A DNA stretch of 64,000 bases from Spirochaetia bacterium (GTDB lineage Bacteria > Spirochaetota > UBA4802 > UBA5550). The stretch is from the NCBI GenBank assembly GCA_009885955.1, contig VFJS01000003.1:1-64000 (forward strand), in the 5' to 3' direction. Both the position numbers and the translations under genes were made by a program. Position 1 is the stretch's first letter; every line of letters begins with the position of its first letter. The notes below the pieces were generated by a model, which saw only the letters and a program-made list of their open reading frames with translations, was not told the origin of the DNA and ran no database searches. Positions 7,019 to 21,093 of this stretch are shown here, piece after piece.

Positions 7019-8457
7019 CTGGTCCCGCTTTTTGTATCTTCAAGGATAATCCCTTCTTTCAATAGGGAGTCCCTTATGGTATCGGCCTCCGTGAAATTTT
7101 TCTTTTCTTTTGCCGAATTTCTCTCATTCACAAGCCTTTCGATCTCCTTTTCGTCAAGGGAGCTTTTCGTTTCCCCGGGGAAAAAGATGAAACCGAAAAC
7201 CCTGTCAATGTCCCTGAGGACATCCATTACCCCGGCCGCGTCTTTCGCGGATAGGCGGTCTCCGTCAATGAGGCTGTTCACGGCATGGATGAAGTCGAAG
7301 AAGGCCCCGATGCCCATGGATATATTAATGTCGTCATCGACGCTATCGGTGAAATTTTTGTAAAAGACTTCGATGCACTCCCGGAGCTCTTTGCAGTCTT
7401 CCGGAGAACTGAACCTGTCTTTCAGCCTTGCGGTGAAATTGTCTATCCGTGCCAGCGCCTGCCCGGCCTGCTCCAGCCCGGTGAGGGTGAAATTCATCTG
7501 TTTTTTATAGTGGGCTGAAATAAGGAGGTACCGTATGGATCTCGGGGAGTAGCCCTTTTCCAGCAGGTCCGCGAGCACATAGAAGTTGCCTTTCGACTTT
7601 GACATCTTGGCGCCGTCAACAAGGAGGTGTTCCACGTGGACCCAATGACGCACGAATTTGTCGCCGTAGGCCGCTTCGCTCTGGGCAATTTCGTTTTCAT
7701 GGTGGGGAAATATAAGGTCAACACCGCCGGTGTGCATGTCAATGGTGCCGCGGAAAATTTTTCTTATCATTGCCGAGCACTCAATGTGCCATCCGGGCCT
7801 TCCTCTGCCGAAGGGCGTATCCCATGAGACATCGGGGTCATCCTCGGCCTTCCACAGCGCAAAGTCTCGAACATCATCCTTCTCGTATTCATCCGTATCG
7901 TACCTCAGCCCGGTTTTGATACCGCTCCTGTCCAGTCTGCACAGCTTCCCGTAGGCATGGAATTTTTCTATGCTGAAGTAGAGGGACCCTTCTTTTGTAT
8001 AGATAAATCCCTTTTCATGGAGCCTGGTTAATATATCTATCATCGAATCCACCGATTCGGTGGCCCTCGGTACATGCTCCACGTCCTCTGCATTGAGCAT
8101 TTTCAGATTTTCAAAAAATATTCCGGTAAACCTGCCGGTGAAATTTCTGAGGGATATTTTTTCATTCCTGGCCCCGGCAATGGTCTTGTCGTCGATGTCG
8201 GTGATGTTCATTGCATGGTTCAACCTGAATCCCCTGAATTTGAGGTAGCGCCTCAGGAGGTCATTGAAGAGGAAAGTTCTGAAATTTCCGATATGCGCGT
8301 AGCTGTAAACGGTGGGGCCGCATGAGTATATGGTCACCGGGGGATAGTCTTCAATTTTATCTTTTTTTTCTCCGCCGGGAATGAATTCCTCCACCCGGCA
8401 TGTAAGCGTATTGTAAAGTCTCAGCGCCACACGTTCCTCCATGAATGGTATTTCCAT
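7000..8457 (-). CDS. cysS: Cysteinyl-tRNA synthetase
   Basis: Charges tRNA-Cys. The class I signature is intact: YSCGPTVYSYAHIGNFR (HIGH motif plus the zinc-binding Cys), WHIECSAM and FPHHENEIAQSEA (remaining zinc ligands), and AKMSKSKGNF (KMSKS loop). The 485-aa length is normal. The reading frame begins MEIPFMEERVALRLYN. An alternative ATG at 8442 (MEERV) has GGA 9 bases upstream and may be the true start, since nothing precedes the ATG at 8457. It is followed by the overlapping rlmB. Confidence 0.96.
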   Translation of the reverse strand: MEIPFMEERVALRLYNTLTCRVEEFIPGGEKKDKIEDYPPVTIYSCGPTVYSYAHIGNFRTFLFNDLLRRYLKFRGFRLNHAMNITDIDDKTIAGARNEKISLRNFTGRFTGIFFENLKMLNAEDVEHVPRATESVDSMIDILTRLHEKGFIYTKEGSLYFSIEKFHAYGKLCRLDRSGIKTGLRYDTDEYEKDDVRDFALWKAEDDPDVSWDTPFGRGRPGWHIECSAMIRKIFRGTIDMHTGGVDLIFPHHENEIAQSEAAYGDKFVRHWVHVEHLLVDGAKMSKSKGNFYVLADLLEKGYSPRSIRYLLISAHYKKQMNFTLTGLEQAGQALARIDNFTARLKDRFSSPEDCKELRECIEVFYKNFTDSVDDDINISMGIGAFFDFIHAVNSLIDGDRLSAKDAAGVMDVLRDIDRVFGFIFFPGETKSSLDEKEIERLVNERNSAKEKKNFTEADTIRDSLLKEGIILEDTKSGTRWKLKK

Positions 8458-12406: not shown

Positions 12407-13873
12407 TCACGACTGCTTCAGCAGCATGTTTTTCCTAAAATTTTTAATCTGCTCCGGGGTGATTTTTAGTTTTTCACCTACGGTGATTCCATCACTCACA
12501 TCCCCGTCAACCGGGGCGGCTACATAGAATGCATTCAGCCCCTTTTCTGCGAGTATCCCTCTTGCCATTTCCGCCCTGGTCCCTGAGGAACAGATGAGGT
12601 AGTATTTTTTAGACTTGTCCAGGGAAGCAGCTTTCACCGGAAGGTCGCCGAGGGGTATGTTCACCGCGCCGACGAGGCTCATGGCCGGGGCGTCTTTTAT
12701 TTCGCCGGGCTCCCTCACATCTACCAATACTACTCCAACGGGGATAGAATCCTTGATCATTTCAAGGAAACTTTTAGCTGATACAAATCCCGGTGGATCC
12801 TTGTGAACATAGTTTATAGACGCCACGAGCTGGTTTTTTACAACCTGCCCGGATTTGGAGAAGTCAGCGAATCCGCCATTCAGGACAAGGACATTTTTAA
12901 ATCCCAACTTGCTGATTTCTTCTGCAAGGCCGAAGGCTTCTTTATTGTCTGCTGCATCACTGCCGTAAATGACGAAGGGAGCCCTGGCCATGTCTTCACC
13001 CCTGGGGAACTGGGATTTGAATTTAGCCAGGTCCTTTGCCTTGAACGCAATTGCGCCCGGGATGTGGCCATCTGCAGCCTTGTCCCTGATGTCGATAAGG
13101 ATCATCGGCATTTTATTTTCAATGTTCTTTGCTACAAAGCCGGCCGTGCTGAAGCCTGCATTCCCTTTTTTCTTCCAGTCCGGATATCCTTCATGATACA
13201 CCCTGATGTTTTTGTAGCCCTTCTGGCCCACAAGGTAAGCGCTGAGGGGCGAGAGTTTGCAGTGGAGCCCGCCGCAGTAAAATACCATGAGGGTCTCCTT
13301 GTTCTTCGGCAGCTTTTCCAGCCCTGTGCCGTCTTTTATTGACGGAAGGGGGATGTTTATCGCCCCCGGGATAAACCCGGTAACGAATACATCACCGGGC
13401 CTGTTGTCAATGATCATGAGGTCTTTGTTCTGATTGTATGCCCCGCCCATGAGTTTTTTCAGTTCTTCATTTCCGATTATCTGTTCGGCCGGAATTTTGA
13501 AGGGAGGAAGGATTCTGATTGTTGTTGCAATAACCGATGCTCCCTCTTTGACGGTAGCAATTGCGATGCAGGTGCCTTCCTTCTTCTTCAGATCGGCAAT
13601 CTCTTTAATCTTATCGTCCCAATCCCATACAGTTTTGTCAGAATAGCGGATGGAACTGCAGAGCTTGCCGCTTTTTACATTTATCATTTTTGATTTTTCC
13701 GATATCATGGAAAAGGGGCCTATGTATGTCCCGTCTACGGCAAGTTTTTCACTGCCGATGACGCAGTTTGCGTCATGGATTGGGTTGGGTCCCTGTGCTT
13801 TTTTTGCGCATGATACAAAAAGAAAAATACCCAGTGACAGAATCAAAGCAACAGCGATACTTTTTGTTTTCAT
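12407..13873 (-). CDS. Periplasmic lipoprotein with three rhodanese domains
   Basis: Last gene of the sulfur operon. A signal with a lipobox-like FVSC (Cys22) indicates a lipid-anchored envelope protein of 488 aa. After an N-terminal domain of about 100 residues come three rhodanese modules. The first (about 125-240) has an active-loop Cys in YCGGLHC. The second (about 245-345) has YGSDAADN, so no catalytic Cys. The third (about 365-475) has a full loop CSSGTRAE. Rhodaneses carry sulfane sulfur as a persulfide, so this protein could shuttle sulfur to or from the molybdoenzyme outside the inner membrane. The upstream spacing contains an intergenic repeat, so a separate promoter is possible. 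Confidence 0.85.
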   Translation of the reverse strand: MKTKSIAVALILSLGIFLFVSCAKKAQGPNPIHDANCVIGSEKLAVDGTYIGPFSMISEKSKMINVKSGKLCSSIRYSDKTVWDWDDKIKEIADLKKKEGTCIAIATVKEGASVIATTIRILPPFKIPAEQIIGNEELKKLMGGAYNQNKDLMIIDNRPGDVFVTGFIPGAINIPLPSIKDGTGLEKLPKNKETLMVFYCGGLHCKLSPLSAYLVGQKGYKNIRVYHEGYPDWKKKGNAGFSTAGFVAKNIENKMPMILIDIRDKAADGHIPGAIAFKAKDLAKFKSQFPRGEDMARAPFVIYGSDAADNKEAFGLAEEISKLGFKNVLVLNGGFADFSKSGQVVKNQLVASINYVHKDPPGFVSAKSFLEMIKDSIPVGVVLVDVREPGEIKDAPAMSLVGAVNIPLGDLPVKAASLDKSKKYYLICSSGTRAEMARGILAEKGLNAFYVAAPVDGDVSDGITVGEKLKITPEQIKNFRKNMLLKQS

Positions 13874-13970
13874 GGTACACTCCTTTTTAATTTTTATTGA
13901 GGGAGCCTCTATTAATCAATTCATCCGGTTCCCTTTATGATGCTAATATTTATTTTTTTTTATAAATCCG

Positions 13971-14166
13971 ATGCCCTCACCCGCGCTCTGCGCATTCGTC
14001 GAGCGCTTTTCGGACGTCCTGTCCGCGCTCGACACTAAGGCCTCCTGCCTGTCGCCTCTCCCGGTAGGGCGAGGGTTTCTTAAACAGAACAAGGTGCTTA
14101 AGCTCCTTGTTCTTGATTGCCAACCCCCTCTCCCTATTGCGGGAGAGGGGCCGGGGGTGAGGGCAT
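13971..14166. repeat. GCCCTCACCC element, complete copy A (196 bp)
   Basis: Terminal inverted repeats ATGCCCTCACCC (13971-13982) and GGGTGAGGGCAT (14155-14166). The interior holds further inverted repeats, including AGAACAAGG/CCTTGTTCT around 14086-14113 and CCCCTCTCCC/GGGAGAGGGG. There is no transposase. It behaves like a small non-autonomous mobile or structural element and splits the two rhodanese genes of one operon. Confidence 0.7.
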
Positions 14167-14199
14167 TTTTTATTAATTTATGCGGCAACATTGTTCCTG

Positions 14200-14835
14200 T
14201 CAGCAGCCGCCGACTTTCCCTTTTTTCCCTTTGGGAGGAGTTTTTTTAGATTCTTCACTACCGGCGCCGGAAACCTTTTTATCATTATCAAGCGATGATG
14301 TTTCAGCGCTTCCGCCGAAAAAGGATGCCATGGAACTGGCTGCACGGTACTTGAGTACTTCGTCATCGGAAACTCTCAGTGACATTTTAGGGTTTAATAT
14401 GCTTTCCACCCACCCGTTAAAACCTCCTGTCAGCACAACTACATCCTTCCCTGCAGACTTCAGCACCAGCCATGCCTGGTTTGCATGGCTGTCGCCGTTT
14501 GAATAGAGAACTATGGTTTTATCGTCAGAAAATTCTCTGTCTAATGTTTTCACGGTAAGGAGATCCGTAAGGGTGATATTTTTTGCAGTCTTTATTGAGC
14601 CCTTTTTAAAATCCTCGGCACTTCTGATGTCGATGAGCCGGTAATCGGACTTTCCTTCAATAATCCACCGGGAGAGCTTGTCCGATGATATGTGGTCTTC
14701 GTTGCCGGCTATGGCTTTTGCAAGCTCCTCGGGTTTGAAATTGTATCTGGGTGAACCGGTCCCTGACACCACAAGCATCATGACACCGGCAATGAGAGCT
14801 GCAAAAATTCCAATCTGTTTGTTTTCAAGTTTCAT
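14200..14835 (-). CDS. Exported rhodanese-like protein lacking the catalytic Cys
   Basis: The start at 14835 is fixed by AAAGGAG eight bases upstream; a longer frame has no such site. The 211-aa product has an N-terminal membrane anchor or signal (IGIFAALIAGVMMLVVSG) and one rhodanese domain (about 55-155). At the active loop it reads LYSNGDSHANQAW, with Ser where sulfurtransferases have Cys. It is therefore likely a sulfur-compound binder or redox partner, not a classical sulfurtransferase. The C-terminal tail is rich in Ser, Lys and Gly and ends VGGC, leaving one Cys at the tip. It follows the selenoprotein gene by 25 bases in the operon. Confidence 0.82.
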   Translation of the reverse strand: MKLENKQIGIFAALIAGVMMLVVSGTGSPRYNFKPEELAKAIAGNEDHISSDKLSRWIIEGKSDYRLIDIRSAEDFKKGSIKTAKNITLTDLLTVKTLDREFSDDKTIVLYSNGDSHANQAWLVLKSAGKDVVVLTGGFNGWVESILNPKMSLRVSDDEVLKYRAASSMASFFGGSAETSSLDNDKKVSGAGSEESKKTPPKGKKGKVGGC

Positions 14836-14860
14836 ACAATGACTCCTTTTCCTGTTGTTG

Positions 14861-15448
14861 TTATGCCTTTTCACCAAAACGTTTCTCAAGCAGCTCCGAG
14901 CCCCAGAACCCGCCCAGGGCAATGAGAATAACAATAAATCCCACTACGCCCATGGGCAGACCGAGCAGCTGGTCAAGGGTGAACCTCCCCATGTTTCCGC
15001 TGTTATAGAATGCATCGATGAGGGGCTCTATCTCCCCGAAGATAAATGCTCCGATAAAAAGACCTGCCAGGTAAAAAATAGAATCGATTTTTAATGTGGC
15101 CAGACCGACCACGCTGGTGCCGGGTCAATACCCGCCTATGACAAACCCCACTCCCATGATGAGGCCTCCTGCAAGCCCTGACCAGAGAAAGGTGGGGTTG
15201 ATGTACAGGTTCTCAAGGGCGATCCACCCGGTAGATCCCAGGAGTACAAGCCCGGTCATTGCTGTGATGATTGCCGTGAACATGACCTTGAATACCGTCA
15301 TGTCTCTGAAATAAAACTGGAGTGCGAGCTTTCTTGAATTTCCGAAACCTCCGCGCTCCAGGAAGAAGCCGAATCCAATTCCAATGATGATTGCGAACAG
15401 GAAATTAATCCCTTCGCCCCACTGATAGGTTACTGCAAGCGGTGCCAT
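14861..15448 (-). CDS. YeeE/YedE-family half-transporter with in-frame UGA (probable selenocysteine)
   Basis: YeeE/YedE (TsuA/PmpAB-type) membrane proteins import thiosulfate or related sulfur or selenium compounds through a path lined by conserved Cys. Residues 1-107 are encoded by 15448-15128. A TGA (15127-15125) follows, and the same frame continues for 87 residues to 14861. The join reads GFVIGGY-(UGA)-PGTSVVGLATLKID, so the UGA stands exactly on the family's invariant Cys of GYCPGTS. A hairpin matching a bacterial SECIS follows (separate entry). With UGA read as Sec, the protein is 195 aa with about five membrane segments, the right size for the second half-subunit. AGGAGG precedes the ATG. 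Without readthrough, neither piece is a sensible protein. Confidence 0.85.
15096..15112 (-). promoter_or_regulatory. Candidate bacterial SECIS hairpin
   Basis: On the mRNA, 12 bases after the UGA comes GUGGUC-GGUCU-GGCCAC, a 6-bp stem with a 5-base loop (15112-15107, 15106-15102, 15101-15096). As I recall, the E. coli fdhF element is also a 17-base hairpin with GGUCU in its loop, placed 11 bases after the UGA. Loop sequence, size and distance all agree. SelB would bind here to direct selenocysteine insertion. Confidence 0.75.
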
Positions 15449-15458
15449 TCACTACCTC

Positions 15459-15971
15459 CTAAATCCAAAGTCTTCGTACAAACCAGGCCATCATGTAGGC
15501 CCCTGCGAATATGGCGAGCATCGTGGCCCAGCTCCCCACTGCAAGCGTAGCGCCGCCCGTGAGGGCTACGCCGCTCGTGCAACCCCTGGCCAGACGCGCG
15601 CCGAACCCGAAGATGGAGCCGCCGAGAACGGCAAAAAACCAGCGCTGTTTTGCTGTGATCCGCGGCCCGTGGTTAATCTCCATTTTCATGCGCCCTGCCA
15701 GTACCCCTGATATCATCCCCCCGATTATCACCCCGATGATCTCAAATATGAGCCAGTTCTTGAGCGGGTTAATGGCCCCTCCGCCGTATTCCGCGAGATA
15801 GGGGTTCGCGTTTACATGTTCCGGTGAAACAAGTTTTGTGAAAAAAACAACAATGCTGTTAATTGCACCCGATGCCCCGAGCCCGCGCCCGGAAAGGTAA
15901 AATGCCGCGATGAGGACCAGGCCTAATCCAACACCTGCAAGATAGGGAGATGAATATTTTTTTTCTTCCAT
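15459..15971 (-). CDS. YeeE/YedE-family half-transporter, first subunit
   Basis: 170 aa from the ATG at 15971, chosen because AGGAG lies eight bases upstream; an earlier GTG would overlap that site. About four or five membrane segments (VGLGLVLIAAFYLSG, WLIFEIIGVIIGGMISG, FAVLGGSIFGFGARL, MLAIFAGAYMMAW). The conserved Cys motif of the first half, RLARGCTSGVALTGGA, is intact as Cys. It pairs with the downstream UGA-containing half, 10 bases away, to build one sulfur- or selenium-compound channel, as in two-gene PmpA/PmpB systems. Confidence 0.9.
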   Translation of the reverse strand: MEEKKYSSPYLAGVGLGLVLIAAFYLSGRGLGASGAINSIVVFFTKLVSPEHVNANPYLAEYGGGAINPLKNWLIFEIIGVIIGGMISGVLAGRMKMEINHGPRITAKQRWFFAVLGGSIFGFGARLARGCTSGVALTGGATLAVGSWATMLAIFAGAYMMAWFVRRLWI

Positions 15972-15992
15972 AACAATCACTCCTGATATTTA

Positions 15993-16976
15993 TTAATACT
16001 TGAGCCAGGCTGAAACCTGGCCTGCATCTACTATGATAAACCTGAGAAGAAATCCTCCGAAGAGCACAAACCCCGATGCAAGGAGGGCCGGAACGTGTTT
16101 TCCCTTCAGCTCAAGGAGTTCAAAGAAGGCCGGAATAAGGAGCGCTATTCCGAATATCCCCACCCAGAAAGCCGGGGTATATGCCCCGCCAAGTATGAGG
16201 TCTGCTGCCTCCATGTGCTGTCTCGATGAGGTCAGCATTCCTATGATAAACAGGATGACCATGAAGAGTTCAACCGCGATGAGCCCGAGGTCGACCTTCG
16301 TGAAAAAGGCCCGCTCCTTTTCAGTTTTTGCAAAGAGGATGATGAGGGCTGCCCCAGTTGATACCCCCGATACAAGGAATAGCGGGCCCAGGATTGCCGA
16401 ACTCCAGAAGGGGCGTGCGCCAAAGGAGCTCAAAAGAATTCCGGTATAAATCCCCAGGAGGACTCCCACAGGTATATTTGCCTTTGCAATGATCGATTTA
16501 TACTTTTCGGCAAAATCGAATATCCCCGCGACCCTGCCGGCATACGGCGCTAAACGCGAACTGCCGATCCAGGCCATGATTTTTCCATACTGCTTTGAAT
16601 AGCCCTTCCTGAAGGTGGAGGCAATGAGAAGGATAGAAAGCGGATATACCAGGAGGAGGATCCATGCGCCCCAGGACATTACCGAAGTTATTCTGAATGC
16701 TGTGTAAAAGCGCCACACATAGAGCTTGTGGCTGAGGTCGAGAAAAAGGGCTCCCATTCCCAGGGTGATGAGTACCGGGGCTGCAAGGATGATCATATTG
16801 GTGGATACGGGGTACTCCTCGTCCTTTCCCTTTAATACCATCCATGCAGCAATCACCATAACGCCGGCAGTGATGCCGCCTAAAAAAAGATAAACAGGCA
16901 CTTCCCATCCCCATATCTGAAAACTGGAGCGGGCAGCCTTGCCTGTGGTAATTAATATTTCGTTTAATTGATTCAT
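15993..16976 (-). CDS. NrfD/PsrC-family membrane subunit of molybdoenzyme complex
   Basis: Anchors a periplasmic reductase and exchanges electrons with the quinone pool. 327 aa with eight to nine hydrophobic segments. The N-terminus WGWEVPVYLFLGGITAGVMV is the family's characteristic first helix, and LDLSHKLYVWRFYTAF and SVMSWGAWILLL match conserved PsrC/NrfD stretches. It lies eight bases after the ferredoxin subunit in the operon, the standard order A-B-C. It carries no haem motif. Confidence 0.92.
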   Translation of the reverse strand: MNQLNEILITTGKAARSSFQIWGWEVPVYLFLGGITAGVMVIAAWMVLKGKDEEYPVSTNMIILAAPVLITLGMGALFLDLSHKLYVWRFYTAFRITSVMSWGAWILLLVYPLSILLIASTFRKGYSKQYGKIMAWIGSSRLAPYAGRVAGIFDFAEKYKSIIAKANIPVGVLLGIYTGILLSSFGARPFWSSAILGPLFLVSGVSTGAALIILFAKTEKERAFFTKVDLGLIAVELFMVILFIIGMLTSSRQHMEAADLILGGAYTPAFWVGIFGIALLIPAFFELLELKGKHVPALLASGFVLFGGFLLRFIIVDAGQVSAWLKY

Positions 16977-16984
16977 AGGATACC

Positions 16985-17536
16985 TCAGATTAAAAAGTAT
17001 ACATTCGGTTTTGTCCCTGCATCGGGCAGGATGGTCTTGTGTTTTCTGCTCTTCAGCAGCCCAGATACACTGCTCCTTTTGTCATTGAGATCGCCGAAGC
17101 TGATCGCATGAGTGGGACATACGGACATGCATGCCGGGTCAAGGCCGGTGGTGATCCTGTGGTCGCAGAAGGTGCACTTGCCCACATATCCTTCGGGCAT
17201 GACAAACCGCGCGTCGTAGGGGCATGCAGCCATGCATGCCTTGCACCCGGTACATTTTTCCGGAGTCACGGTTACAATATTGGACCCCTCGCTGAAATGG
17301 CTTGCTCCCGTGGGGCAGGCCGATACGCACGGGGAATCGGAACAGTGGTTGCAGCGCTCGGAACGGATCTCCAGGGAGAGTGTAGGATAGGACCCCGTGC
17401 ACTCCTCGACCACCCATGTTCTGAAAAGCCCCTCGGGGACCGCGTTTTCGGTTTTGCATGCCACTACGCAGGCTCCGCAGCCCACGCATACTGTTGTATC
17501 AATAACCATTCCATAGAGTTTATCTTTTATTTTCAT
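16985..17536 (-). CDS. Four-cluster [4Fe-4S] ferredoxin subunit (PsrB/PhsB-like)
   Basis: Electron-transfer subunit between the molybdenum subunit and the membrane anchor. All four cluster motifs are present: CVGCGACVVAC, CNHCSDSPCVSACP, CTGCKACMAACP, and CTFCDHRITTGLDPACMSVC. 183 aa from the ATG at 17536, which has AGGTGA five bases upstream. It lacks its own signal and would be co-exported with the Tat-bearing large subunit. Its start lies 9 bases after the molybdoenzyme stop. Confidence 0.93.
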   Translation of the reverse strand: MKIKDKLYGMVIDTTVCVGCGACVVACKTENAVPEGLFRTWVVEECTGSYPTLSLEIRSERCNHCSDSPCVSACPTGASHFSEGSNIVTVTPEKCTGCKACMAACPYDARFVMPEGYVGKCTFCDHRITTGLDPACMSVCPTHAISFGDLNDKRSSVSGLLKSRKHKTILPDAGTKPNVYFLI

Positions 17537-17545
17537 TATTATCAC

Positions 17546-19747
17546 CTAAACCCTGAAAGTCACAAAGTTGCCGCGCATCCCTGCGCCGCCCATTATGGGG
17601 TCATACATAACCCTGGATATTAATTCTATGTCGTCGGCGCCTTTCAAGTAGGAACGGCGCATTTTTTTCATGGTATGGCCGAACCCATGGACCATGTACA
17701 CGCAGTCGGGACGTATGCGTTCCGTCACCCTGACCTTTATCCTGTTGCTCACAATGCCGTCCTGGTTTTCCAGAGCCACGTATTGTCCGATGGAGAGGCC
17801 CCAGGACTTCGCGACTGAACTGTTTACCCACACCTCGTTTTCCGGCACAAGCTGCGTAAGGATGGGATTATTTGAAGTCCTTCCAAAAGAATGGGACGGC
17901 GATCTTCCGTAGATAAGCCGGTAATAATCTTTCCCGGGCTCATCATGCTTTAAAAACTTAGGCACGGGATCATACCCGTACTGTTTAAGCGTAGATGAAT
18001 ATAATTCTATCTTGCCGCTGTCTGTTCCGAATTTGAAATTCTCGCCTTTTTTGATGTAGAGGGAATCATCGGTTTCCAGGGTTTTAACCCCGATCCTTGC
18101 CATTTCCTCAAGGGAACTTCCGGCCTTTTTGAGTTTGTAATCAAGATATTCCTCTATCGTTTTCCATTTGAAATAATCGCCAAGGCCCATCTTGACCCCC
18201 AGTTCCCTGGCTATCCACCATGCGGGTTTTGAGTCGTACCTTGGTTTCAGCGCAGGCATGCGCAGCGCAAGCTGGGACTTTCTCCCCTGGGAGGTGCGAA
18301 TATCGTCATACCTTTCCAGGTAGGTGCATTCAGGGAGAACCACATCGGCGTACCCGGTAATCTCCGAGGGCATGGTATCCACAACCACGAGCAATTCCAG
18401 CACCTGGAGGGCATCGATGAGCATCTTTGTGTCGGGCATGGTTTTTAAAAGGTTTGCGCCATACACAAACCACCCCTTGAATTTCAGGGATGAAGTGGCT
18501 GAAGGGATCGTAGCCTGGCATATGCCCGATGAGAGCGCCAGGCTGGCCAGTTCATATTTACCGCTGGTTGCTTCCTGCCAGGACATTTTTGGTTTGGGAT
18601 ATTTAGGGTGGGGGAAATCAGCAAGTTCGGACTTTACCGGGTTAAAGAATCCCCCTTTTCTGCCCCAGCTTCCAAGAAGGGCATTCAGGATTGCACCGGC
18701 CCTTACCCTCTGCGTATCGTCTCCATACCAGACAGAGTGCCTCCCGGGATGGACCAGAGTGGCCGGGCTGTTTTTTGCCATGATGCGGGCTGTTTCCCTG
18801 ATAATTTCGGGCCTGATTGTTGTCACCGGATAGGCCCATTCAGGTGTGTATTTCTGAACCGCTTTTTTAAGTTCATCAAATCCGGTGGTATACCGCTTTA
18901 CATAGTCTCTGTCGTAGAGTTCATCTTCAATAATGACGTTTATCCATGCCAGCAGCAGGGCAGTGTCCGTTGCCGGTTTTATCGGGAGCCAGTATTTTGC
19001 CTTGCTGGCTGCCGTTGAAAAACGGGGGTCCACGACAATGATATCAGCCCCTTTTTTGATAGCCTGGGCAAATTCATTAACCTGCTGGCTGTGAGTATTT
19101 TCTCCTATATGTGACCCTATCAATACAATGCATCTGCTGTTTTTCATGTCCGTGCGTTCCGGGGAATCTATGGCCTCCCCGAAGGTGAGGATGTATGCCT
19201 CTTCGCGGGGCCCCCGGCAGTTGGCATAAGACGGGGCTGTGATGCTGTTTGACCCGTAGGCATTGAGGAGCGTCTTGAAAAAGCTCCCCCCTGAACCGTG
19301 GGTGAAAAGGGCAACGGTCTCGGGCCCGAATGTATCCCTGATGACGCTCATTTTTTTTGCTATATAATCAAAGGCCTCATCCCATGTGGCATCGCGGAAA
19401 ACCTGTTTTCCCCGTTCGCCGGTTCTGATTAAAGGATTCCTTAACCTGTCCGTATCAAGATACGCCCCGAATCCCGCAGATCCCTTTGTGCAGAGCCTCC
19501 CGTAACAGTGCTCATCCTCCTCATTCCCGACTATTTTCCATGGCTCTCCGTTTTTCAGGTATACCCATCCGGCGCATTTAAAGGTGCACATTTCGCAATA
19601 GGTGGGGATTTTTGTGATGACGTCCCCCTTTTTTTCATCTGTGATTTTTTTTGTCTGATAGTTTACAATCCCCCCAGTCAGGGCTAGTGCCCCTGCAGCG
19701 GCAGATCCGATTTTAATAAAATCCCTTCGGTTTAATTTTTTACTCAT
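17546..19747 (-). CDS. Molybdopterin oxidoreductase, PsrA/PhsA-like (polysulfide/thiosulfate reductase family)
   Basis: Catalytic subunit, 733 aa. The Tat signal reads MSKKLNRRDFIKIGSAAAG, so it is exported folded. The first [4Fe-4S] site is C51, C54, C58 and C86. The probable Mo ligand is C177 in PSYANCRGPREE, a Cys and not Sec or Ser. The molybdopterin-binding C-terminal domain begins near YRLIYGRSPSHSFG. The family reduces polysulfide, thiosulfate, tetrathionate, arsenate or selenate; the substrate cannot be fixed from sequence. The companions (rhodaneses, YeeE/YedE) argue for sulfane sulfur or thiosulfate. It is the first gene of the operon, behind the FNR box at 19864. Confidence 0.9.
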   Translation of the reverse strand: MSKKLNRRDFIKIGSAAAGALALTGGIVNYQTKKITDEKKGDVITKIPTYCEMCTFKCAGWVYLKNGEPWKIVGNEEDEHCYGRLCTKGSAGFGAYLDTDRLRNPLIRTGERGKQVFRDATWDEAFDYIAKKMSVIRDTFGPETVALFTHGSGGSFFKTLLNAYGSNSITAPSYANCRGPREEAYILTFGEAIDSPERTDMKNSRCIVLIGSHIGENTHSQQVNEFAQAIKKGADIIVVDPRFSTAASKAKYWLPIKPATDTALLLAWINVIIEDELYDRDYVKRYTTGFDELKKAVQKYTPEWAYPVTTIRPEIIRETARIMAKNSPATLVHPGRHSVWYGDDTQRVRAGAILNALLGSWGRKGGFFNPVKSELADFPHPKYPKPKMSWQEATSGKYELASLALSSGICQATIPSATSSLKFKGWFVYGANLLKTMPDTKMLIDALQVLELLVVVDTMPSEITGYADVVLPECTYLERYDDIRTSQGRKSQLALRMPALKPRYDSKPAWWIARELGVKMGLGDYFKWKTIEEYLDYKLKKAGSSLEEMARIGVKTLETDDSLYIKKGENFKFGTDSGKIELYSSTLKQYGYDPVPKFLKHDEPGKDYYRLIYGRSPSHSFGRTSNNPILTQLVPENEVWVNSSVAKSWGLSIGQYVALENQDGIVSNRIKVRVTERIRPDCVYMVHGFGHTMKKMRRSYLKGADDIELISRVMYDPIMGGAGMRGNFVTFRV

Positions 19748-20148
19748 GTTGAACCTGTATTAAATGGTATATATTTTATGATAAAGTAAATATAATTTCA
19801 GATAAATTTTTTGTCAACAAAATTATTTTAAAAAAATCTAAAATACTATAATTCTTTTTATTTTTGATGAATATCAAACTAATGCTATTGGTATGGTATC
19901 ATTATGAATGTAAGCATATATCATTTGACAAATTGCGCAAAATAAATAATTGTCATTGATGAAAGATTTTCAGGTTTTGAAAATAGTCATGTATAGGGCC
20001 GTGGTAATCACGGAGATCATGGCGCCCCTTTTATGGTTTTTACCCATAAATCGCCGCACCAGGATCCGGTAAATATCATTGACAGAAAACCGGCCCCCGC
20101 CGATATTTGCCGTGTTATGATTTTATTTGGATACTGCAGTAAAGAGAT
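19748..20148. other. Gene-free divergent region between the sulfur operon and murB
   Basis: 400 bases with very AT-rich DNA next to the molybdoenzyme start, an FNR-type box at 19864-19877, and a GC-richer part near murB. I see no reading frame and no repeat family here. murB has no clear consensus promoter in it. Confidence 0.6.
19864..19877 (-). promoter_or_regulatory. FNR/CRP-family operator upstream of the sulfur operon
   Basis: TTGAT-GAAT-ATCAA, a perfect match to the FNR consensus TTGATnnnnATCAA, 117 bases before the molybdoenzyme start. TAGATT at 19840-19835 would place the box at about -41, the usual activating position. This predicts activation when oxygen is absent. No FNR gene lies in the window. 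Confidence 0.65.
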
Positions 20149-21093
20149 ATGATGAACACCAGCCCGGATATTCCCATGAAATACCCCAGCAATGTAATTG
20201 AATTTTTAAACGGCACAGGGATCATAAAATTTGATGAGCCCATGAAAAATTACTGCACGTTCAAGTGCGGCGGGCCGGCGGATATCCTTGTGTATCCCGA
20301 CAGCAGTGACTCGCTGTCAAGGATCATGATAATGGCAGGGGATGAGAATGTTCCGGTAACGGTTATCGGGGGCGGCTCAAATCTCCTGGTGGGAGACAGG
20401 GGGATCAGGGGAATAGTGATACGGATAAGCGATGATAAAGTGATGAACAGCTCCATCCATCCTGCCGATGATTTTATCTACTCCGATGCTTCCATATCCA
20501 AGAAGGATTTCATGAGCTTCTGCATTGAAGCCGGCTACGAGGGGGTTGAATTCATGGCCGGAATTCCCGGTTCAGTGGGCGGGGGGATTATCATGAATGC
20601 CGGTACCGGCCGGGGCGCCTTCGTGGATATCCTTGACAGCATCGACATAGTCGACAGGTGCGGGGCCGTCCGCAATATCAGGATACGCCATGATATGACC
20701 TCCTACCGCGAGTTGCGCGTCGACGATGGGGCTGCGGTCACCGGGGGATTCTTCAGGCTGAAAAAGCTGAGGAACAAAGCCGCAACAATCAAGCTGGTAA
20801 ATGATATTCTCGAAGAGAGGAAAAAGAAGCATCCCATAACCTATCCGTCGGCCGGATCTGTTTTTAAGAATCCCGAAGGCCATTCTTCATGGAAGCTGAT
20901 TAACGATTCGGGCCTCAAAGGTACGATTGTAGGCGGGGCAATGGTTTCTGAACTTCATACCAATTTTATTATCAACCAGGGAAACGCAAAATCTGCGGAC
21001 ATTTTTAATCTCATTGAAAAAGTGAGGGGCGAGGTGTTCAGGAGGTTCAATATCCTCCTTGAGACCGAGATACGGATGTTAGGGGAGTTTTAA
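20149..21093 (+). CDS. murB: UDP-N-acetylenolpyruvoylglucosamine reductase
   Basis: FAD enzyme of peptidoglycan precursor synthesis that makes UDP-MurNAc. 314 aa. Clear MurB signatures: MKNYCTFKCGGPADILVYP, VIGGGSNLLVGDRGIRGIVIR (FAD binding), AGIPGSVGGGIIMNAG, YRELR, PSAGSVFKNPEG with the catalytic Ser, and a final LETEIRMLGEF containing the catalytic Glu. It appears to be monocistronic, and its stop is two bases from the opposing outer-membrane gene. The start is a tandem ATGATG with only a weak ribosome site. Confidence 0.95.
   Translation: MMNTSPDIPMKYPSNVIEFLNGTGIIKFDEPMKNYCTFKCGGPADILVYPDSSDSLSRIMIMAGDENVPVTVIGGGSNLLVGDRGIRGIVIRISDDKVMNSSIHPADDFIYSDASISKKDFMSFCIEAGYEGVEFMAGIPGSVGGGIIMNAGTGRGAFVDILDSIDIVDRCGAVRNIRIRHDMTSYRELRVDDGAAVTGGFFRLKKLRNKAATIKLVNDILEERKKKHPITYPSAGSVFKNPEGHSSWKLINDSGLKGTIVGGAMVSELHTNFIINQGNAKSADIFNLIEKVRGEVFRRFNILLETEIRMLGEF

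Follow-up and report, generated by a model that had tools for sequence, protein, structure and literature searches.

The gene yeeE2, on the minus strand of the 64,000-nucleotide stretch of spirochaete DNA analysed here by purely computational means (the window), raises the question of whether an in-frame UGA can be a working codon in the pore of a membrane transporter. Its frame runs from 15448 to 14861(-), comprises 195 codons (MAPLAVTY...GFVIGGYUPGTSVVGLATLKID...FGEKA, then the stop) and contains a sole internal stop, the TGA at 15127-15125. A Shine-Dalgarno sequence (TAGGAGG) lies ahead of the ATG, and the product matches the Sulf_transp family PF04143 with 50.2 bits (cut-off 27, E=3.6e-13). 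As the original prediction had it, the TGA, here codon 108, falls on the invariant pore Cys of the GYCPGTS motif, and both flanks are family sequence in one frame. Gapped alignment with relatives gives identities of 57-71% upstream of the TGA and 52-66% downstream, and a Cys form from the same taxonomic family (G011) is 68% identical to yeeE2. On either side of the TGA the third codon positions are far more variable than the second; downstream of it, second-position changes are about one quarter as frequent as third-position changes. Purifying selection on yeeE2 persists beyond the TGA.

On these and the following grounds, the product of 14861-15448(-) is almost certainly a selenoprotein that forms the PmpB-like half of a split YeeE/YedE transporter, with UGA 108 read through as selenocysteine (Sec). 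The broader reading, a Sec-containing PmpB-like channel half to which rhodanese proteins would supply sulfur, is given a probability of roughly 0.85.

The strongest comparison comes from the homologues. At column 108 the codon is Cys (TGC or TGT) in 209 of 234 distinct homologues, TGA in 25 and nothing else, many of these relatives being metagenome-assembled and the counts not being independent events. The Cys/Sec exchange anticipated at this residue is thus seen directly, and the TGA codons of the homologues lie on the Cys column and not at random elsewhere in the gene. The 25 TGA forms are the window gene, three Anaerolineae YeeE-rhodanese fusions (L054, L150 and L158) and 21 Anaerolineae paralogues of about 190 residues, and they belong to Spirochaetota and to two Anaerolineae clades. 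When Sec is mapped as a label on the tree it changes five times, with four of the changes forced by starred branches (at least four switches). The selA gene was found in the genomes of two Sec-bearing fusions, L054 and L017. As a separate observation, the clade of short Anaerolineae YeeE halves with the motif [YF]UPGTC (L160-L171, L173, L174, L177, L178 and L291-L295) has TGA as the more frequent state among the genes fetched, and its partner half carries a Cys-only GCTSG.

The TGA could also be a sequencing or assembly error over a true TGC or TGT, or a recent nonsense mutation in a decaying gene. The distribution within the phylum fits such an accident, since the window form is the sole TGA among about 15 close homologues (at least 43% identity) in 393 Spirochaetota genomes and is therefore a singleton there; its nearest homologues, from the same family and order, have Cys. 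An accident would not, however, explain why in 25 genes from several clades TGA falls precisely on the Cys column, why the frame past it is intact and under selection, or why the genome has Sec machinery and the gene a SECIS element resembling that of the genome's own FdhA (P=3e-4). Error or decay is accordingly considered very improbable.

The genome of the window (G000) is about 98% complete. The original prediction implied that selA, selB, selC and selD should be present in it, and all four are: selA, selB and selD score 492, 295 and 365 bits, all in excess of the curated cut-offs, and the tRNA-Sec (selC) scores 70.9 bits, above the Rfam gathering score. The genome also encodes other selenoproteins. 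In FdhA (G000:C7:97466-99460) the TGA occupies the place expected for the active-site residue (ARLUHAPT), and its SECIS has the loop GGUCU; the loop is AGUCU in a second Fdh-like selenoprotein (G000:C12:62023-62772), and selD (G000:C112:58989-59912) carries an in-frame TGA of its own (SGSGUASK).

The predicted 17-base hairpin, GUGGUC-GGUCU-GGCCAC, is located at 15112-15096(-), twelve nucleotides past the TGA. The FdhA element of the same genome is GUGGCC-GGUCU-GGUCAC with an identical 12-nucleotide spacer; 15 of the 17 bases are shared, and both mismatches preserve base pairs. When the protein sequence is kept constant and codons are sampled according to local usage, an identity of 15/17 to the FdhA SECIS arises by chance with P of about 3e-4. 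Any hairpin of this class follows 4% of all TGA triplets in the window and 17% of synonymous recodings, and by itself the yeeE2 hairpin is weak evidence for Sec. A G-loop hairpin accompanies 6 of the 40 TGA codons in the window that have a long open frame on either side; at a glance, that of yeeE2 is the only one of the 40 within recognisable family sequence. Minimum free energy folding of the 40-60 nucleotides past the UGA yields alternative structures, for which reason the hairpin was assessed by position, comparison and selection. An Rfam scan of 14000-20500 returned no match.

Among the homologues the hairpin follows the codon. Every one of an initial set of 20 distinct TGA genes had a G-loop hairpin at or below -6 kcal, whereas 27% of 122 Cys genes did; on a stricter count the figures are 24/25 for TGA genes and 20/209 for Cys genes (about 10%). 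In the three Anaerolineae Sec fusions, which are divergent genes, the codons of the hairpin are the same at 5/5 conserved residues, as against 25/83 elsewhere.

The GTG at 15112 opens an 83-residue ORF, and translation might in principle stop at the UGA and restart there to give two half-length proteins. This GTG lacks a Shine-Dalgarno sequence, unlike the true starts, the split would take the invariant Cys out of the pore loop, and the homologues are all continuous across the split point; two products at this locus are hardly credible. Read as one selenoprotein, yeeE2 can be placed against its partner and the solved structures of the family.

The adjacent gene yeeE1 (15459..15971, minus strand) encodes the PmpA-like half, corresponding to the C-terminal half of TsuA. 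It matches the C-terminal half of PF04143 with 74 bits (cut-off 27) and the C-terminal half of TsuA with E=3e-9. Its Cys131, in the motif ARGCTSG at 15581-15579(-), is the equivalent of TsuA Cys293, and this column is Cys in 232/232 homologues and never TGA. For yeeE2, a profile of the PmpB-like subunit puts Cys/Sec 108 on Cys91 of Spirochaeta thermophila TsuA (6LEO); phmmer with the single sequence (P0001) had no PDB match. Each half thus has one conserved pore Cys/Sec, at the positions of TsuA Cys91 and Cys293, as in the split PmpAB type. Both residues are indispensable in TsuA, and in split YeeE proteins PmpB is the N-terminal and PmpA the C-terminal half, with the same correspondence to Cys91 and Cys293 (PMC11582611). 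The yeeE2 product probably pairs with that of yeeE1, and Sec108 and Cys131 would take the pore-lining places of TsuA Cys91 and Cys293. Homology to Cys91 in this way agrees with the early proposal of a Sec in the conducting path. An AlphaFold model of the yeeE2 subunit alone reaches pLDDT 68, and a fold search with this low-confidence model gave no meaningful match.

The two halves lie in a cluster of genes that are all on the minus strand, in the order (19747 to 12407) Phs/Psr-type molybdoenzyme, ferredoxin, NrfD, yeeE1, yeeE2, rhodanese with a GGC tail and triple-rhodanese lipoprotein. The first gene (17546..19747) encodes a molybdopterin oxidoreductase with a TAT signal (PF00384); its product appears nearest to the thiosulfate/polysulfide reductases PhsA/PsrA, with a PRK15488 score (470 bits) below the equivalog cut-off of 694. 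It is followed by a 4Fe-4S ferredoxin subunit of the PsrB/PhsB type (16985..17539) and a quinone-interacting membrane subunit of the NrfD/PsrC type (15993..16976, PF03916). Downstream of yeeE2, a membrane-anchored rhodanese-like protein (14200..14835, PF00581) has one N-terminal hydrophobic segment and no catalytic Cys in its rhodanese loop, where an active rhodanese would have one. Its single Cys, Cys211, is the last residue of the protein (KVGGC, then the stop). The last gene (12407..13873) encodes a lipoprotein with three rhodanese domains, two of which have an active-site-like Cys (YCGGLHC and ICSSGTR). From its N-terminal segment the anchored rhodanese looks periplasmic, as does the lipoprotein, the tail of the rhodanese being placed there from a single hydrophobic segment and from counts of charges. 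In the gap that separates the two rhodanese genes, 13960-14190 is a repeat-like stretch (CCCTCACCCCCGGCCCCTCTCCC...GGGAGAGG) with the appearance of a dispersed REP-type element.

The same set of genes was observed in a Geobacter genome (G068, loci L191/L198), with a multi-rhodanese protein, both YeeE halves in the Cys form and a Phs-like molybdoenzyme. Its occurrence in another phylum suggests that 12407-19747 is a conserved and possibly mobile sulfur cassette.

This neighbourhood bears on what is carried. If the Sec is real, the cargo could still be a selenium compound and not sulfane sulfur or thiosulfate, the transporter being a YedE-like selenium importer that uses Sec itself. A YedE-like protein has been implicated in selenium transport in Methanococcus (PMC11582611), and yeeE2 has a weak match to the seleno_YedE model TIGR04112, yet its 22 bits are far under the curated cut-off of 200. 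Around yeeE2 lie genes for a Phs/Psr-type reductase and rhodaneses, and neither selD nor yedF; selD and selAB are on a different contig from yeeE2, and Cys homologues also occur in genomes without detected selA. A selenium cargo is on balance improbable.

The direction of flow admits another arrangement around a genuine Sec, in which the complex senses or exports sulfur, or sulfur is drawn out of the pore by the rhodanese on the periplasmic side. The sequence does not reveal direction and the reductases of the cluster produce periplasmic sulfide, while the characterised relatives, TsuA and SoxT, are sulfur importers (PMC11582611); outward flow or sensing is judged unlikely. Inward transport of sulfur by a Sec-containing channel half is the reading retained here.

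A link between the rhodanese proteins and the channel is provided by relatives outside the window. Many of them carry the PmpB-like half and a rhodanese domain lacking a catalytic Cys in one fused protein, with an extra hydrophobic segment joining the two. An alignment of 37 fusions has only two invariant Cys columns, C108 and a C-terminal GGC(G/S/N) tail, and the rhodanese loop is Cys-free. The KVGGC end of the 14200..14835 protein is the counterpart of the GGC, GGCG or GGGUG tail of these fused relatives. The tail position is conserved in 110/110 fusions and is Cys in 102 and TGA in eight, namely L017, L019 and L034 (Neomarinimicrobiota) and L130, L150, L158, L171 and L054 (Anaerolineae; the L054 site lies near 7250). 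In 8/8 the TGA is followed by one Gly codon and then the stop (GGG-TGA-Gly-stop).

Past the stop codon of these genes a 6-7-bp G-loop hairpin begins about 15-17 nucleotides from the start of the TGA. It is found after 8/8 TGA tails versus 1/80 Cys tails (Fisher 1.4e-10), has two-sided compensatory changes at 5/7 base pairs, and its covariation is above that of all 500 shuffles. Since the invariant Cys of the fusions are C108 and the tail Cys, and both are replaced by TGA, the two Sec sites are exactly the two invariant Cys. Three fusions (L054, L150 and L158) have both in one protein, with the motifs [YF]UPGTS and GGGUG before the stop. In a structure model of a fusion the rhodanese domain is folded with confidence and the tail is disordered (residues 409-413 have pLDDT below 50); a fold search with this model retrieved the rhodanese domain only, the channel half being without match among solved structures.

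A mechanism can be proposed from these elements. SelB would decode UGA 108 as Sec through the hairpin 12 nucleotides downstream. The periplasmic rhodanese proteins of the cluster would collect sulfane sulfur from the neighbouring thiosulfate/polysulfide chemistry, and the Gly-rich flexible tail that ends in the sole Cys of one of them would present it to Sec108. The sulfur, held on the tail as a persulfide or selenosulfide, could then pass to Sec108 in the pore and inward past Cys131, and capture and release would be quicker with Sec, given its lower pKa and faster exchange. Such a relay from arm to pore is tentative and stands a little below even odds. Because the two Cys of TsuA are about 7 Å apart, which puts direct transfer from one to the other in question (PMC11582611), the relay is not established. 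The extension to the Anaerolineae fusions is equally conjectural: there, a dead rhodanese with a swinging Sec arm may pass sulfur to the pore Sec in a two-Sec relay, of which the window gene would be the single-Sec, split version.

Sec is known mostly from soluble redox enzymes. Here it would lie along the route that a transporter's substrate takes, and relatives would carry a second Sec at the end of the arm joined to the channel. For TsuA and SoxT the question has been raised of whether thiosulfate is held at Cys by hydrogen bonding or handled by thiol chemistry (PMC11582611). The natural Cys/Sec pairs at both sites could test whether import in the YeeE family works by thiol chemistry, with persulfide hand-over, or by weak hydrogen bonding. 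Annotation pipelines likely cut these genes at the UGA or miss their final two residues; a GGG-UGA-Gly-stop tail whose SECIS follows the stop is easily mistaken for a normal gene end.

The original prediction was aware of no described selenoprotein of the YeeE/YedE family, and in this it has to be corrected. One, WP_012471001.1 with the motif GUxSG, is already in published tables, the accompanying text saying only that transporter selenoproteins are predicted (PMC9312934, PMC13188914). A 2026 review treats differing Sec motifs as distinct subfamilies, and the window motif, YUPGT, is not of the GUxSG form, the GCTSG of the partner half being the invariably Cys motif described above. Published rhodanese selenoproteins have five forms (UxxS, UxxG, CxU, UxxG and UxxxxU), with a C-terminal GGUG not among them. 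No description of a [YF]UPGT Sec or of the tail Sec was found in the literature searched, which covered few subscription papers, and such absence is not proof; the Sec of the fusion tails is apparently a second, previously undescribed site. A survey of PF04143 proteins in Geobacteraceae for the GUxSG protein gave a lone TGA match, which lies upstream of the real start and was rejected.

Compared with known systems, the yeeE2 hairpin resembles the SECIS of E. coli fdhF and bacterial FdhA in its GGUCU loop, 12-nucleotide spacer and 6-bp stem, as the original prediction proposed for loop and spacing, but it lies in a membrane transporter gene whereas theirs are in oxidoreductase genes. The published GUxSG selenoprotein also belongs to PF04143 and has a conserved Cys replaced by Sec; the window protein differs from it at least in motif ([YF]UPGT), and neither a rhodanese fusion nor a tail Sec is mentioned for the published protein.

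SoxY is a periplasmic sulfur carrier with a flexible, Gly-rich C-terminal GGCGG arm and a single reactive Cys. The Gly-rich, flexible C-terminus with a lone Cys in the rhodanese of the window and in the fusion tails may be analogous to this arm. The carrier domain here is, however, rhodanese-like and not of the SoxY fold, and Sec replaces Cys in eight relatives; a search of the 14200-14835 protein for a SoxY domain or homology found the rhodanese domain only, the likeness being confined to the GGC tail. With PmpA and PmpB of Serratia the window system shares the division into two half-proteins, each with one conserved Cys, but its halves, at 195 and 170 residues, exceed theirs in length, and one has Sec. 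TsuA (YeeE) of Spirochaeta thermophila, PDB 6LEO, belongs to the same family, with U108 corresponding to Cys91 and the partner Cys131 to Cys293. TsuA is a single chain of nine helices in the all-Cys form with a cytoplasmic TsuB, whereas the window system has two half subunits and rhodanese proteins of the periplasmic type.
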